Assembly: GCA_028709605.1 (NCBI GenBank)
Contig: JAQVWR010000017.1
Coordinates: forward strand, 1-33,768
DNA: 33,768 bases
DNA from: Proteiniphilum sp.
GTDB taxonomy: Bacteria > Bacteroidota > Bacteroidia > Bacteroidales > Dysgonomonadaceae
Direction: 5' to 3'
The notes beneath the pieces are model-generated. The model was not told where the DNA came from. It made no database searches and saw only the letters and a list, made by a program, of their open reading frames with translations. Numbering within the stretch: position 1 is the first letter of the stretch; every line of letters starts with the position of its first letter. Shown here one piece after another: positions 1,288 to 11,071 of the stretch. Both the position numbers and the translations under genes were made by a program.

Positions 1288-1755
1288 ATGGAAAAGGAGC
1301 AACTTAGCCATTTAGGCAAACAGACGGTATACCGGCAGGATTATGCACCCGATGTACTGGAAGCGTTCACCAACAAGCACCGGAACAATGACTACTGGGT
1401 CACCTTTGACTGCCCCGAATTCACCAGCCTCTGCCCCATCACCGGCCAGCCAGACTTCGCCACCATCCGCATCGACTACATCCCCGACGTGAAGATGGTG
1501 GAAAGCAAGAGCCTGAAGCTCTATCTCTTCAGCTTTCGCAACCACGGAGCCTTTCATGAAGACTGTGTAAACATCATCATGAAAGATCTGATCGGTCTGA
1601 TGGATCCTAAATATATTGAGGTGACCGGCATCTTCACCCCGCGCGGAGGCATCAGCATCTACCCTTATGCCAATTACGGTCGTGCAGGCACGAAGTATGA
1701 AAAGCTGGCCGAAGAGCGGCTGTTTGCTCACTCTATCCCCTCTTTCGGTTTATAG
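1288..1755 (+). CDS. queF: NADPH-dependent preQ0 reductase QueF (short, unimodular type)
   Basis: A 155-residue protein of the short QueF type that reduces the nitrile of preQ0 to the aminomethyl group of preQ1. The T-fold signature [14 protein letters not shown] is present; Cys49 is the residue that forms the thioimide with substrate in this family. The segment [20 protein letters not shown] carries the family's substrate and NADPH contacts. The frame is open from 1222, overlapping queC, but conserved sequence starts only after the ATG at 1288, so that start was chosen. Probably co-transcribed with queC. The last 28 bases overlap the convergent lipoprotein gene. Confidence 0.96.
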
Positions 1756-2525
1756 ATCCTTACCCAGTCAATCAGCAAGTCAGCCGGCAGGTTGGCAGTA
1801 TCGGTATCCTTGTTCAACCGGATGCCGAGGAACAGCTGAAAGTCCTGGGTATCGAAAGGAAACTGCCCCGGCATGTCGGTAAGGATCCGCGGGTACTTAC
1901 GGGTACGAAGGTCATCCACGAAAAAAACCAGGCTGTCGGGGTACTTCTCCACCCCATAGATGCGGTACTGTGTGGGATTCACCCCCACCAATGAGCTGGA
2001 TGGCGGATTTTCGGCCATCCCCCCGGTAGTGGTATATTCGGACGATACCGATTGGTAAATGAACTGATCCAACCCGAAATGTTCCATCAAATCGATCGAG
2101 ATATGCTTCGACCGGTCCGCCGGCAACAACGAAAGAAAGTGGGTGGCTCCTTCAGCGGGATTCACACGAACCTTTACCTCAATACGGGCGACAGCTCCCG
2201 CCTTCAGTCCTCCGCGGGTGATTCCACCCGTAAGAAAGGGCATCGTATCGTTGGGTACCGAATTCTCCATCGCCCGCAACACCAGGTTCCCTTCCTGCGA
2301 TAGATATAAGGCATCATTGCGGCTCATATAACGATCCATCAGTCGTTTTCCCCTGGGTATCTTTGTCCATTCGGTTTCATTCAATCCTTCATCGAAATCA
2401 TCTTCCCAGACCAGCTCCCAGCCTGCACGGAATTTCTCATCGGTCTCTTTCTTCTGACCGGTACAGGAGCACATTCCGGTAAAGAGCAGTGCCGTCAGCA
2501 GCAGCAGTGTCGTATTTTTTTTCAT
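1728..2525 (-). CDS. GH16-like lipoprotein lacking the catalytic nucleophile
   Basis: A 265-residue protein with a lipoprotein signal (hydrophobic stretch then Cys19/Cys21, the latter preceded by Ser). The N-terminal [11 protein letters not shown] matches the opening of glycoside hydrolase family 16 (laminarinase-like jelly-roll), and [10 protein letters not shown] matches its end. The active-site strand, normally E-I-D-I-M-E, reads S-I-D-L-M-E at residues 143-148: the nucleophile Glu is Ser143, while Asp145 and the acid/base Glu148 remain. The Trp-rich segment that normally precedes it is replaced by [10 protein letters not shown]. It may therefore bind rather than cleave glycans; that is inference. 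It overlaps queF tail-to-tail by 28 bases. Confidence 0.8.
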
Positions 2526-2561
2526 GTAGTGATGTTTGTTGTTTCTTTCAAATTGTCATTG

Positions 2562-2569
2562 CAAAAATA
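2562..2569 (-). promoter_or_regulatory. Putative -7 promoter box (TATTTTTG) for the GH16-like lipoprotein
   Basis: The minus strand reads TATTTTTG, a match to TAnnTTTG, 37 bases upstream of the lipoprotein ATG. A TTG further upstream (in GGTTGGAG) is about 25 bases away, longer than usual. Confidence 0.45.
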
Positions 2570-5315: not shown

Positions 5316-6536
5316 ATGAGAATACTCCACACAGCCGACTGGCATTTGGGAAAACGGATAGATGACTTTCCGCGCCTGGAGGAGCAGCAGGCGGTGATGC
5401 AGGAGATCTGCGAGATCGCGGATCGGGAGGAGGCCGATGCGGTGCTGGTAGCGGGCGACCTGTTCGACACCTTCAATCCCCCCACAGAGGCGGTCGATCT
5501 GCTCTATCAGACGCTGAAGCGACTAACGGCAAACGGCCGCCGCCCGGTGATCGCCATCGCCGGCAACCACGACTCACCCGACCGAATCGAGGCCCCCGAC
5601 CCGCTGGCCCGTGAGTGCGGCATCATTTTCGCCGGTTATCCCCATTCCGTGGTTCCTCCCTTTGCCCTGGAGTCAGGCCTCCGGGTAGTGCAAAGTGAGC
5701 CCGGTTTTCTGGAGCTGAAACTCCCGGGAACAGATATCCCCATAAGGTTATTGCTGACCCCCTACGCCAGCGAGTACCGGCTGAAAACATTCCTGGGTCA
5801 GGAGAAGAGCGAAGAGCAGTTGCGCACCTTGCTGCAGGGACGGTGGCAAGCACTGGCAGACCGCCATTGCGACCGGCGGGGAGTGAACATCCTGGTGAGC
5901 CACCTCTTCATGGTGAGACAAGGAGATGACCTTCCGGAGGAGCCGGAGGAGGAGAAGCCGATCCTGCATGTGGGCGGTGCACAAGCCGTCTACACCTGTA
6001 ATATCCCGGCACAGATACAATATACGGCACTGGGACACCTGCACCGAATGCACTTTGTTGAGAAAAGCCCATCGCCGGTCTGTTATAGCGGCAGCCCCCT
6101 CTCCTACAGCTTTGCCGAGGCGGGGCAGCAGAAATATCTGTTGAGGGTCGACGTGGCACCGGGAGAAACAGCCCAGGTACGGGAGATACCGCTCACCTGT
6201 ATGAAGAAACTGTTGCGGAAAAGAGCCGAGGGCGTCGATGAAGCCCTGCAGTGGCTCTCCGAAAACCAGGATGCCCTGGTAGAGCTGACGATCGTTACCG
6301 ACAGCTTTCTCACCGCAGTGGAACGGAAAGCCCTCTATGCCGCCCACCCCGGTATCGTGGCGATCATCCCTGATGTAACCGATATGGAGAGGCTGATGGA
6401 GAACAGAAAGCAGCAGATCGACCTGAGCCGGGGTATGGAAGCGTTGTTCCGGGATTATTTCCGTCACGAGAAAGGGCAGGAACCCAACGAGGAGATCATG
6501 CAATTGTTCAACGAGATATTGGCAGAAGAAGAATGA
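5316..6536 (+). CDS. sbcD: Exonuclease SbcCD subunit D (Mre11-type nuclease)
   Basis: A 406-residue metallophosphoesterase. Metal-binding motifs are in the expected order: Asp8 and His10 in HTADWHLGKR, Asp48 in VAGDLFD, AGNHDSP (Asn84, His85), then SHLF and LGHLHRMH. YSGSPLSYSF closes the catalytic domain and a C-terminal cap domain follows. With SbcC it forms the ATP-dependent nuclease that opens DNA hairpins and processes blocked ends. The frame can be read from a TTG at 5301, but the conserved N-terminus MRILHTADWH begins at the ATG at 5316. It overlaps sbcC by four bases (ATGA), a sign of translational coupling. Confidence 0.96.
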   Translation: MRILHTADWHLGKRIDDFPRLEEQQAVMQEICEIADREEADAVLVAGDLFDTFNPPTEAVDLLYQTLKRLTANGRRPVIAIAGNHDSPDRIEAPDPLARECGIIFAGYPHSVVPPFALESGLRVVQSEPGFLELKLPGTDIPIRLLLTPYASEYRLKTFLGQEKSEEQLRTLLQGRWQALADRHCDRRGVNILVSHLFMVRQGDDLPEEPEEEKPILHVGGAQAVYTCNIPAQIQYTALGHLHRMHFVEKSPSPVCYSGSPLSYSFAEAGQQKYLLRVDVAPGETAQVREIPLTCMKKLLRKRAEGVDEALQWLSENQDALVELTIVTDSFLTAVERKALYAAHPGIVAIIPDVTDMERLMENRKQQIDLSRGMEALFRDYFRHEKGQEPNEEIMQLFNEILAEEE

Positions 6537-9500
6537 TACCCATACAACTCACCCTGCAAGGACTTTACTCCTATCAGGCAAAACAGACCATCGACTTTAC
6601 CCGTCTCACCTCTGCAGGCCTGTTCGGCATCTTCGGGACGGTGGGCAGTGGCAAGTCCTCCGTCTTAGAGGCGATCACCTTCGCCCTATACGGTCGTACC
6701 GACAGGCTGAACCTGTCGGGTGACAACCGCAACTATAACATGATGAACCTGAAATCGAAGGAGCTGCTGATCGATTTCATCTTTGAGGCAGGCAAGGAGC
6801 AGACCCTCTATCGTTCCACCGTGAGAGGCAGGCGCAACAGCAAGCGGTTCGAGGATGTGAAAACGCTGGATCGTGCTGCCTACAAGATGGAGGAGAAAGA
6901 GTGGCTCCCCATCGGGCAGGAATTATTGGAGGAAGCTGTCGGTCTCAGCTACGAGAACTTCAAGCGAACCATCATCATCCCCCAGGGTCAGTTTCAAGAG
7001 TTTCTCCAGCTGGGCAGCAGCGATCGTACCCGGATGCTGAAAGAGCTCTTCAGCCTGGAAAAGTATGAGCTTTCCTACAAAGTGGGCCTATTGGAGTCAA
7101 AGAACAACGAGCAGAGGCAGCAGCTGGTGGGACAGCTACAGCAACTGGGAGCAGTCGATGAGGAGCAGGTGGCCCAGTATCAGGAACAGCTAAAAGAGCT
7201 GGAGGAGGCGCTCGAGGAGCAGAAGAAGATGCTTGAGGAGCAACTGCAAAAGGAAGAGTATCTACGGAAATTGCAGGAGTTGGTGCACAAAAGCAGCGAA
7301 GCGGAAAAGGAGTACCGTGAGCTGGAGCGGCAGGAGCCCGTCTATCGTGCCCTCGAAAAGAAAATCAGTCGTTACGAACAGTGTCTCTATCGGTTCAAAC
7401 ATCAACTTGATACAATCAGGGAGACAAACCGGAAAAAAGAGGTGAGATCAGCACAGATCGAGTGCGACAGGAAGAGCCTGAGAGAGGAAGAAGCAGCAAT
7501 TGAACAGATTGAGAAGCTGCTCGACGAGATCACACCGGCCTATGAGAAACGGGATGAGCTACAGCAAAAGGCAATAGAACTCTCCCGTCTGCTGCTGATG
7601 AAAAGGGAGGAGACTGACATCGCCAAGGAGAAGATCCGGCTACAAGCAGGTTGCAACTTTCTTGAAAAAGCGACGAAGCAGGCCGACGATCTAAAAACGG
7701 AGAAGCTGCAACGCGAAGAATGTATCAAAAGCCTTCGCAGCAAGATGCCCGACCCGACCCTGCTCTCTGCCATCAAGAGTTGGCATGAGGAAAAAAAGAA
7801 TCTGGAAAAACAGATAGACGAGATCCGAAAAGAGATCGAGAGATATAGCCGTCAGGAGGAAGAGGTGAAGCGTGAACAGACTCTTCTCCTCACTGATCCG
7901 CTGTTTGAAAAGCTGCCGCACGATGCCGGCTACCCTGAATGCGAACAATGGCTGGAGCATAAAAATGAACAGGCGAAAGCACAACAGCGTAAACTGGCAG
8001 AGGAGGAGAATCACCTGCTGGTGAAAGAACGTTTAAAAAGTTTCGCCCGCGATCTGGAAGAGGGACATCCCTGCCCGCTCTGCGGATCAACGCATCATCC
8101 GGAACGCTATCAGAGTGATGGCCAGGAGAAGCAGCTGCAACGCATCGCGGTTGAGAAGAAGAAACTCGAACAGCAACAGAATCATATCGTATCGCTCAGC
8201 AAGCAGATCACGCTGCTCCAGAGCCGACAGCAACAGGCAAAGATCAACCGGGGAGAGTGGAGCGAAAAGAAACAAAAGCTGCAACAACAGATCACAGACC
8301 ATGCCGGGAAGTTTATCTGGGAGAGGTATCGTGCTGAAAAGGAGCTGAACGCAGCTTTCATCGAAGCGAAGGAGATACGGGAGGCACTCAGGGAGCAGGA
8401 GGCGACGCTCTCCAAAACGGCCTCAAAGCTGGAACAGGAGGAGGTCAACAAGGAACGGTACCGCTCAGAGCTGGAGAAGATTCGCACCTCCCTCACGGTT
8501 CACGAGACCACCCTTGCCACCCTCGGGGAGCAGCTCGAGCTGATCACGCCGGAACAGTTTCGGCTAACCGGTGTGGAGGAAATCGAAGAGAAGAGGCAGC
8601 GGCTGCTGGAAGAGCACCAGCATGTTGTGAAGAGGTACGAGGAGAACAGCAGGCTGCTGCAGGAGCGGTTGCGAAGGAGAGACGGGCTGACCGAATCGCT
8701 CAGGATCAACCGCAGGGAGCTGGAGCAGGAGCAATCGGCCATCGCAAGCCTGCAGAAACAGCTTGACGAAGAACTTGCAAAAACCTCTTTCCGGAACTTC
8801 GACGAAGTCAAACAGATCCTCTCTGAAGCAATCGACCTGGAAGCGGAGAAGTTGAAGCTGGCCACCTTCAGCAATCATTTGGTGCGGGGCAGATCAACAG
8901 TCGAACAACTGCGGAAAGAGATCGGCGGGAGGGTGTACCATGCAGACACACACAGGATGCTCCTGGAAAAAATCAACGCGCTCAGGGAAGAGGTGTCACA
9001 AAAAACCATGCGACAGGGAGAAATAAAAGTGCTGCTCAAGAGACTCCGGGAGGATCTGCACCACATGACCATGCTGAGGGAGGCACTCGAGAAGCTGGAG
9101 ACAAGGGGTGAGAACATCCGGACAATGAAGTCGCTCTTCAAGGCGAGCGGTTTCGTAAACTATATCTCCACCGTCTACCTGCAGAATCTCTGCAATGCAG
9201 CCAACGACCGGTTTTTCCGGCTCACGCGACAGAAGCTGAGCCTCGAGATCACACCCGACAACAACTTCCAGGTGCGTGATTTCATGAATGAGGGAAAGGT
9301 CAGGAGCGTAAAAACCCTTTCCGGCGGCCAAACTTTCCAAGCTTCCCTCTCACTGGCGCTGGCACTGGCCGACAACATCCAGCAAATCACTTGCTCCAGC
9401 CAAAACTTCTTCTTTCTGGATGAAGGCTTCGGATCACTCGACAAGGAGTCGCTCAATATCGTGTTCGACACCCTGAAAACGCTGCGCAGGGAGAACCGTA

Positions 9501-9613
9501 TCGTGGGGGTAATCTCCCATGTGGAGGAAATGCAGCAGGAGATAGAGGCACACCTGCGCATCGAAAACGACCCGGAGAGGGGCAGTATCATCCACCGCAG
9601 CTGGGAAGGGTAG
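6533..9613 (+). CDS. sbcC: Exonuclease SbcCD subunit C (Rad50-type ATPase)
   Basis: A 1026-residue SMC-like ATPase. Walker A is GTVGSGKSS (Lys41). Two long Glu/Lys/Gln-rich coiled-coil arms flank the zinc hook CPLC (Cys514, Cys517), almost exactly mid-protein. The ABC signature LSGGQ is near residue 929 and Walker B FFFLDEG near 958-964. The arms pair head-to-head through the hook and the ATPase heads hold SbcD at DNA ends or hairpins. All key residues are intact and the length is normal. The gene is the last of the sbcDC pair; no clear terminator follows, only a small GTTG-AAAA-CAAC hairpin at 9678-9689. Confidence 0.96.
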   Translation: MIPIQLTLQGLYSYQAKQTIDFTRLTSAGLFGIFGTVGSGKSSVLEAITFALYGRTDRLNLSGDNRNYNMMNLKSKELLIDFIFEAGKEQTLYRSTVRGRRNSKRFEDVKTLDRAAYKMEEKEWLPIGQELLEEAVGLSYENFKRTIIIPQGQFQEFLQLGSSDRTRMLKELFSLEKYELSYKVGLLESKNNEQRQQLVGQLQQLGAVDEEQVAQYQEQLKELEEALEEQKKMLEEQLQKEEYLRKLQELVHKSSEAEKEYRELERQEPVYRALEKKISRYEQCLYRFKHQLDTIRETNRKKEVRSAQIECDRKSLREEEAAIEQIEKLLDEITPAYEKRDELQQKAIELSRLLLMKREETDIAKEKIRLQAGCNFLEKATKQADDLKTEKLQREECIKSLRSKMPDPTLLSAIKSWHEEKKNLEKQIDEIRKEIERYSRQEEEVKREQTLLLTDPLFEKLPHDAGYPECEQWLEHKNEQAKAQQRKLAEEENHLLVKERLKSFARDLEEGHPCPLCGSTHHPERYQSDGQEKQLQRIAVEKKKLEQQQNHIVSLSKQITLLQSRQQQAKINRGEWSEKKQKLQQQITDHAGKFIWERYRAEKELNAAFIEAKEIREALREQEATLSKTASKLEQEEVNKERYRSELEKIRTSLTVHETTLATLGEQLELITPEQFRLTGVEEIEEKRQRLLEEHQHVVKRYEENSRLLQERLRRRDGLTESLRINRRELEQEQSAIASLQKQLDEELAKTSFRNFDEVKQILSEAIDLEAEKLKLATFSNHLVRGRSTVEQLRKEIGGRVYHADTHRMLLEKINALREEVSQKTMRQGEIKVLLKRLREDLHHMTMLREALEKLETRGENIRTMKSLFKASGFVNYISTVYLQNLCNAANDRFFRLTRQKLSLEITPDNNFQVRDFMNEGKVRSVKTLSGGQTFQASLSLALALADNIQQITCSSQNFFFLDEGFGSLDKESLNIVFDTLKTLRRENRIVGVISHVEEMQQEIEAHLRIENDPERGSIIHRSWEG

Positions 9614-9725
9614 AAATCGGAGACTGCAGGTTTGCCGGCCTATTGTTCACAACCTGTTGATAATGGGTTCATAAGTTGTTGAAAACAACCACCCGAAATA
9701 TTTGCTTATTTTTGATGACTATTGT

Positions 9726-9733
9726 TATATTTG
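9726..9733 (+). promoter_or_regulatory. Putative -7 promoter box (TATATTTG) for the candidate large ncRNA
   Basis: TATATTTG matches TAnnTTTG. A TTTG at 9701-9704 lies 21 bases upstream and could be the -33 element. The region between is AT-rich. No convincing coding start follows, so the transcript beginning near 9740 would be non-coding. Confidence 0.6.
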
Positions 9734-9739
9734 CAGACA

Positions 9740-10634
9740 ACGACAACGAAACCACATCGTACGAAAAGTACGAACGTTTATAGGAGTTCATTGACATTTT
9801 GTACACGACCGGAAGGATTGCATTCAGGAGATGAGCGGACTTGTCTGATCAGGCTCTATGTGTGTATCGTGATGATAGCTTCCCGCTTTTCATCCCTGCG
9901 CCGAATGACAATTCTACAACACAAAAGTATCTGCAGCTGCCTGTGCACACTGTGCCTGCAAGGCAACAACAGTGATTTCAACGGACAGACTGGCACACAG
10001 AGAGGAGGCGGAAGGTAAAACGGATGTTTCTTTACTGTGACAGGTCATTTAGACGGAGATCTTTTTTCGGGTTTCGGAACTCTCACCGGAAAGATGAAGC
10101 CTGAAAGGAAGATAATGATGGATAAAGATACCGTTGAACAGAGACAGGCCGGTTTCGGGAAAAAGAGGGTTTTACTACATCAGCTGTTTTCGTTCGCGAG
10201 GGCTACTGATGGTAAGAATCTTCGGGGCTGAATACCTTTACACGGAAAAGCGTTTTTTGCGCATCAGCAAAGACAGGTTCTCCTGTGTTTTGCGGGTGCA
10301 TTGCAGAGGCGCCAGTGTATCGATTCTGCTTCACAGTCCGGAAAAACATATCAAACGATTCTGATGTTATCGAAACAATGATATTGTGACTTCACAGAGC
10401 AGCTTTAACAGCCTCAAACACTGTTTCAGACGTTTTTTGAAGTATCTGTACTCTGAAGTATTGCGCCTGCAGGATGGAAACAATAAACCTCCAAGTTTGT
10501 TGATTCTCTGCTGCGTTTCTCCGGGACACGCCTCCCCCGGCATTGCGACTGTAGTGTGCCGATGTGTCCGATCCGTACGGAACGATTTGAACTCCTACCC
10601 TATACAAGAAGCCTCGGAAGACCGGGGCTTTTTT
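9740..10634 (+). ncRNA. Candidate large structured non-coding RNA (about 0.9 kb), family not recognised
   Basis: No reading frame here resembles a protein, yet the stretch has the marks of one transcript: a promoter box at 9726-9733 and a strong intrinsic terminator at 10609-10634. Its two ends pair: TAGGAGTTCA (9781-9790) is the exact complement of TGAACTCCTA (10588-10597), and just inside, GTAC 9801-9804 can pair with GTAC 10575-10578. Local hairpins include 9757-9773 (six pairs, GAAAA loop), 10375-10387 (ACAAT/ATTGT) and a nested stem of GGACAC 10524-10529 with GTGTCC 10564-10569 enclosing CGGCA 10538-10542 with TGCCG 10557-10561. I do not see RNase P, tmRNA, SRP or group I/II intron core motifs. 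Function is unknown. Confidence 0.6.
10609..10634 (+). terminator. Rho-independent terminator of the candidate ncRNA
   Basis: AAGCCTCGG (10609-10617) pairs with CCGGGGCTT (10622-10630), nine pairs including one G-U, with an AAGA loop and a run of six T. On the minus strand the hairpin has no T-run after it, so the signal serves plus-strand transcription. Confidence 0.85.
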
Positions 10635-10641
10635 GTTGCCA

Positions 10642-11071
10642 TCAACTCAGGGTCAGGATCATTCTGTGATCCGCTGCCAGTTTGCGCATGTTAAGAATGG
10701 CATACCGCCTCCACGGTCTCCTCGCACAGAGAGGCGTTGTTGAGCAGGTCTGTCTCGCATTCATCGTTCGAAAGGATGTTCTCATTCTTCTTTTGTCGGA
10801 AATAGTCAATCATCAGGTTATGGGCTATGCGCACCAGCCACGAGCGAAAACGGCCGCTCTCGGCATAACGCCCCTGTTGGATGGTGACAATCGCCTTGCA
10901 GAAGGTCTCCTGAAAGAAATCGTCCGCGAGATTTTTGTTTCGTACCGTGTAGAGGATATAGGCGTAAAGGGTTTGCTGGTGTCTGCCCAAGAGCAGATCG
11001 AACGCTTCATTGTTGCCGCCGGCATACAAAACAACCAACTCCTCATCGGTCATTGTGCTGAGAATATCCAT
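10642..11071 (-). pseudogene. ECF-type RNA polymerase sigma factor, inactivated by an internal deletion in region 4
   Basis: From the ATG at 11071, 126 residues read as a Bacteroidetes ECF sigma factor: TDEELVVLYAGGNNEAF, then region 2 with LADDFFQETFCKAI (core and -10 binding) and FRSWLVRIAHNLMIDYFRQ. Shortly after LCEETVEA the frame stops at 10691, with no region 4. The next bases, read in another frame, give RYAILNMRKLAADHRMIL and then stop at 10642-10644. This is the usual C-terminal tail of these factors, which normally follows the helix-turn-helix. So the -35-binding part, roughly 50 codons by family comparison, was deleted together with a frameshift. Promoter recognition should be lost. 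It lies downstream of the acd terminator, tail-to-tail with the ncRNA. Confidence 0.85.

Follow-up and report, generated by a model that had tools for sequence, protein, structure and literature searches.

A predicted large structured RNA with paired ends and a boxA-like segment on Dysgonomonadaceae chromosomes

We analysed 33,768 nucleotides of a Proteiniphilum sp. contig (JAQVWR010000017.1; this whole stretch is the window below), in which a first-pass annotation had proposed a structured RNA in a gene-sized gap. The gap follows an sbcC-like gene (6533-9613) with SMC_N and SbcC_Walker_B, which is itself preceded by a calcineurin-like phosphoesterase gene, sbcD-like by position. Downstream lies a convergent, truncated sigma-70 region-2 gene. 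As far as sequence can tell, the gap holds a free-standing, non-coding and highly structured RNA, and the description of it as such a predicted transcript was largely right. Its features are collected in Table 1. Three of them, the boxA-like segment, the phased DNA boxes upstream and the conserved core, go beyond the first-pass annotation.

Table 1. Features of the predicted RNA gene, in window coordinates
Feature	Position	Strand	Basis or remark
Whole large structured RNA (predicted transcript)	9740-10634	+	fold z -6.19, source-genus homologues
Four 11-bp phased DNA boxes: TTGTTCACAAC, CTGTTGATAAT, GGGTTCATAAG, TTGTTGAAAAC	9643-9686	+	5' of promoter
Bacteroidales-type promoter: TTTG (-33, 9701-9704) and TATATTTG (-7, 9726-9733)	9701-9733	+	sequence
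5' hairpin TCGTAC-GAAAA-GTACGA	9757-9773	+	sequence; stem letters covary in relatives
Closing (terminal) helix, 5' strand	9781-9804	+	partner 10575-10597
boxA-like element GTTCATTGACATTTTG	9786-9801	+	overlaps 5' strand of closing helix
Conserved junction core, 144 model positions, 33 pairs	10323-10463	+	covariation, 44 sequences
Closing helix, 3' strand	10575-10597	+	partner 9781-9804
Intrinsic terminator AAGCCTCGG-AAGA-CCGGGGCTT and T run; nine-pair stem	10609-10634	+	sequence

The promoter of the TAnnTTTG form foreseen in the annotation is in place, with a TTTG further upstream, and so is the nine-pair terminator stem with its T run. The same promoter form was found in 28 of 29 loci inspected, the exception being L019 with TATATTTT. 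In 28 of 29 loci checked by eye, all but L024, the closing 3' strand is followed by a G+C-rich hairpin with a T run. Promoter, closing helix, core and terminator are retained across the homologues, with helix-to-helix lengths between 567 and 1190.

Most homologues have, 5' of the promoter, three to four boxes of the TTGTTNANAA form at 11-bp spacing. Phased boxes of the TGTTGATAA type presumably resemble DnaA boxes, and those of the window may be read as DnaA-box-like or UP-like. When seven genomes were searched with the box pattern (at most two mismatches) it was present at the RNA locus in six and at one other place, in G013; the reversed pattern, used as a control, gave 0 matches. With only one other place in the seven genomes, a regulon of such boxes was rejected. 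An oriC at the RNA was also rejected, as 20 samples of 12 kb from G015 gave no clear skew switch at 1.98 Mb in what is a noisy and weak test.

The annotation had seen no plausible protein here, and we found none either. Two listed ORFs, of 98 and 102 aa, overlap the region; both extend beyond the RNA boundaries and neither is conserved. Among the five closest sequences there are 7 to 16 indels per pair, with lengths of 1, 2, 3, 7 or 91-95; no pair has more than one whose length is divisible by three. ORFs of at least 25 aa are mostly interrupted in one or more of these close relatives. The sole exception is a 33-codon frame on the minus strand (9849-9950), open in all five, which has a frame-shifting indel and differing ends among them; a check of 10 further loci showed no counterpart. 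On the indel pattern and the lack of a conserved frame, a protein-coding region or a pseudogene was rejected; the homologues vary in length without frame conservation and do not look like a coding or decayed gene.

The plus strand of the RNA region folds with a z of -6.19 and the minus strand with a z of -2.00, and in both cases 0 of 20 shuffles were as stable. Across all 34 folded homologous sequences, the source included, z ranged from -1.6 to -8.3 (15 shuffles each). These are 34 of 40 sequences extracted; L011, L013, L014, L032, L033 and L131 were left out, mostly for a wrong start chosen by the promoter finder, and L001, with the same fault, was retained. The terminal helix is within the minimum-energy fold of 32 of the 34, the source's own among them, and the two sequences without it are those that had been given a wrong 3' end. 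In the full-length fold of the five close relatives, 30 of 295 pairs have a double change, two of them in the 5' hairpin, and 68 have at least one mismatch.

The pairing of the two ends over 10 bp, as first proposed, is exact: TAGGAGTTCA (9781-9790) is the reverse complement of TGAACTCCTA (10588-10597). The helix extends inward, where TTTTGTAC (9797-9804) pairs with its partner, and the suggested GTAC/GTAC extension (9801-9804 with 10575-10578) was confirmed. Both closing ends were located in 43 of 47 loci; in L018, L030, L022 and L157 an end is missing or was not found. Since G[AG]ACTCC and GAGTTC[AT]TTG[AG] served as the words for locating the ends, GGAGTTC/GAACTCC is fixed, and the pairs inside the words are selected and are not independent evidence. 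In the 43 loci the pair adjoining GGAGTTC is A-U in 19, U-A in 16, U-U in 6 and U-G in 2. Further along, each position of TTTTG is paired in 41 to 43 of these loci, and the pair after that stretch is U-A (23), C-G (12), U-G (7) or U-U (1).

The first alignment of the conserved core contained 29 sequences and 33 pairs, with double changes at 8. Covariance model R1 was built from this alignment, and a second model, R2, was also made. A larger set of 44 sequences (A3) omits L030 (contig end), L130 (core equal to that of L129) and L134 (no RNA). In A3, 97.7% of the paired cells pair, compared with at most 42.7% when the partner is slid. Double changes are present at 18 of the 33 pairs; shuffles gave 9.1, and none of 500 attained the observed number. 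A3 was aligned to the model, so these pair counts lean towards it. In one lineage a core helix has changed to ACAAC/GUUGU where others have ACUUC/GAAGU. Covariation of the helices, which the annotation had left to be checked, is thus seen as compensatory changes in both the core and the closing helix. We also noticed a 30-bit match of R1 to the antisense of the core in L126 (3990-4130, +). The main stem being nearly self-symmetric, it is probably a mirror match, and a stricter E-value excluded it from A3.

A chance structure in a decayed gene, or in an untranslated leader or trailer belonging to sbcC or some other gene, would also suit the intergenic position, and one-kilobase gaps can harbour pseudogenes. 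Against the covariation of core and closing helix, the z-scores in 34 sequences, the RNA's own promoter and terminator, and upstream genes that differ between species, this explanation is hardly credible. The comparison establishes a conserved non-coding structure in which a closing helix and a junction core lie between a predicted promoter and a terminator.

Homology search across Bacteroidales, another step outlined in the annotation, found homologues in related genera that are conserved as RNA. At the DNA level 35 of 61 genomes have matches, 34 of them among the 37 source-genus genomes; the one elsewhere (G040) is weak and covers the terminator only. R1 matches 45 of 101 family genomes from 6 of 15 genera, once per genome. 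These are 35 of the 39 genomes listed as the source genus and 10 in five other genera. GGAGTTC and G[AG]ACTCC ends were seen around all ten cores outside the source genus (L124-L133), and all ten except L124 have the TAnnTTTG promoter. Neither the DNA search nor R1 found a copy in the source-genus genomes G005, G014 and G030, so some species may do without the RNA. When R1 and R2 were run over 393 genomes of the order only the source and G116 matched; this search used strict filters with 8 candidates scored per genome, and weak relatives may be missed. A BLAST match in G073 was dropped as unsupported by R1. In genus g30 the 5' end of the RNA and the promoter are present at L155 and L157, and the 3' end also at L155. 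The core model had no match there, and a filters-off search of L155 reached at most 8.5 bits. The g30 locus is a diverged or core-swapped version of the RNA, with L155 having the whole layout without a detectable core.

An exact 22-letter pattern of the 5' end, searched across 84,980 species with one genome each, gave 33 loci, labelled Proteiniphilum, Fermentimonas, Petrimonas, Bacteroidales, Bacteroidetes, Porphyromonadaceae and Dysgonamonadaceae. P. acetatigenes DSM 18083 is among those carrying the RNA. Phage and plasmid records gave no match with a 341-base query, and two exact RNA patterns were absent from viral contigs. We describe it as a chromosomal RNA gene with one match per genome, of a family that we infer to be Dysgonomonadaceae.

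One of the 33 pattern loci, L041, is in a MAG labelled Prevotellaceae; there the pattern matches not the RNA but one end of a region that bears an integrase. At 1313-2565 (-) it has an rve_3 region with inverted ends (CAGGAGTTCATTG..) closely resembling the RNA 5' end, by chance or by shared origin; Pfam gave nothing for a second ORF, of 134 aa. The RNA might have arisen from a mobile element, its closing helix being the former terminal inverted repeats, as the integrase-core ORF of L041 (rve_3, E 9e-11) is between CAGGAGTTCATTGAAATTTTGTACATTTT and a near complement, close to the RNA 5' end. Such descent is quite improbable when each of the 45 genomes has a single match, as has the source genome, and no transposase gene was seen inside the RNA. 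Moreover, a chance match of the pattern in 257 billion bases is not improbable (rough estimate ~0.2).

The neighbours of the RNA were inspected by eye in 14 loci. A MacB/FtsX-like permease gene is directly upstream in 7 and a convergent gene for a 197-aa sigma-like protein is next downstream in 9, with Pfam assignments made on the L129 copies only. In G035 the RNA does not adjoin its permease gene. Search words found no RNA copy beside the permease gene in G005, G014 and G030 or in the tried genomes of genera g26, g27, g28, g34, g35, g37 and g38. The ECF sigma-factor gene of the window (10691-11071, -) encodes 126 aa, compared with 197 aa in relatives. About 164 bases of the relatives are missing from it and the frame shifts before region 4, through a real deletion or an assembly fault. 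The convergent order in the 9 loci would fit a cis-encoded regulator of this neighbouring gene. However, the RNA does not overlap the sigma gene and a terminator lies between them, several ORFs intervene in G015 (L037), another gene follows in L125, and in the window an apparently intact RNA stands beside a broken sigma gene. We regard a cis-regulator as very improbable.

The first-pass annotation had spoken of a large ornate RNA of no recognised family, and a long, non-coding, covarying RNA with closed ends is what we find. The Rfam covariance-model search that it recommended gave no family at the curated score: Rfam 15, with 4227 families, had 0 matches in the window or in 12 homologous loci (79452 bases). 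At E values up to 10 there were 10 weak matches, far below the cut-offs and none of them OLE, GOLLD, ROOL or raiA, all of which we take to be in Rfam 15. Its remark that RNase P and tmRNA core motifs are missing also stands. RF00010 is matched by a separate gene in all six genomes searched, the source included, for which reason a divergent RNase P RNA was rejected, and ARAGORN finds no tmRNA in the window. For 6S RNA, RF00013 had no match anywhere in six genomes; in a control it matches 5 of 14 genomes, Bacteroides not among them. No title or abstract opening in our literature search describes the RNA, with preprints and most subscription papers outside that search.

OLE, GOLLD and ROOL have paired ends and a variable periphery, and OLE has a dedicated partner gene. 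The new RNA is likewise long, free-standing, structured and non-coding but is a member of none of them, and unlike OLE it has no dedicated partner gene that we could see. Phages and prophages are the described carriers of GOLLD, as of ROOL (PMC12286853), whereas the new RNA has ordinary chromosomal neighbours and was absent from viral contigs by its two patterns. The raiA motif or ModT RNA, with Bacillota named among its phyla (PMC11706538), is also a structured RNA that forms its own gene; the new RNA has no Rfam match.

For the E. coli rrn operons, boxB, boxA, boxC and a leader-trailer helix have been described, and boxA is given as necessary and sufficient for factor recruitment (PMC10250234). 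The RNA resembles an rRNA operon leader in having a stem-loop, a boxA-like element and an end-to-end helix in the same order. It differs in that no rRNA is enclosed, the boxA-like element overlaps a helix strand and there is an own terminator. Of 47 loci, 35 carry the 5' segment GTTC(A/T)TTGACATTTTG in exact form, 19 of them with the A and 16 with the T. Another 10 have one or two other letters and 2 lack it at contig ends; these counts are affected by the same word selection as the helix ends. The T variant shares 13 of 16 letters with the family's rrn element GATCTTTGACATGATG; the A variant, which is the commoner one and that of the window, shares 12 of 16 and has CATTG where rrn has CTTTG.

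The rrn elements were examined in 24 of 37 16S loci (14 genomes), with 4 second copies and 9 partial ones omitted. G[AT]TCTTT[AG] is in the leader of 22, L210 and L213 being without it (only 173 bases of the L213 leader were available), and G[AT]TCTTTGAC[AG]T follows the 16S in 22, without L207 and L210. Leaders of the source genus carry GATCTTTA, and the closer match to the RNA segment is the element after the 16S. The pattern G[AT]TC[AT]TTGACAT has 0 occurrences on both strands in 240 kb of a relative. What the sequence shows is the resemblance of the conserved 5' segment to the family's rrn elements; that the segment is a boxA, and that in Bacteroidales these rrn elements themselves act as one, we infer.

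Part of the segment belongs to the closing helix, so base pairing or a different binder could account for its conservation. The RNA may then be real and the segment no boxA but a helix strand and a protein- or RNA-binding site, with no antitermination needed. This is a tangible possibility, if short of an even chance, and it would agree with the departure from the rrn element of the A variant, to which 19 of the 35 exact segments belong, and with the different letters of the source-genus 16S leaders. On the other hand, TTGACAT runs on past the paired GGAGTTCW in rrn-like letters, and the similar element after the 16S and the empty background in 240 kb also speak for a boxA.

Judging from the sequences compared, we think it rather probable that the large RNA is made by a Nus-type antitermination complex and has its ends paired, with a scaffold role included in this reading. 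As boxA does in rRNA operons, the boxA-like segment would load RNA polymerase with NusB/S10-type antitermination factors, and antitermination would let the long untranslated transcript escape Rho. The ends would pair like the rRNA leader-trailer helix, so that the domain is closed, the ends are protected and the core is free to fold. The mature RNA would probably act in trans as a scaffold that binds proteins or itself; this step is the weakest and draws on the layout only. With similar reserve, binding or assembly may take place at the core, and the middle, which varies in length, may form a peripheral domain. That it is an rRNA-like extra large RNA, produced by the ribosomal antitermination machinery, with leader-trailer closure and assembly into a dedicated RNA or ribonucleoprotein particle of one family, we consider unlikely.

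Few large structured bacterial RNA families are known and most are without known function. The RNA described here matters in that it is chromosomal, is present in the named strain P. acetatigenes DSM 18083 and has a strong covariation model. It also gives a lead, open to testing, on how untranslated RNAs of this length may be transcribed.
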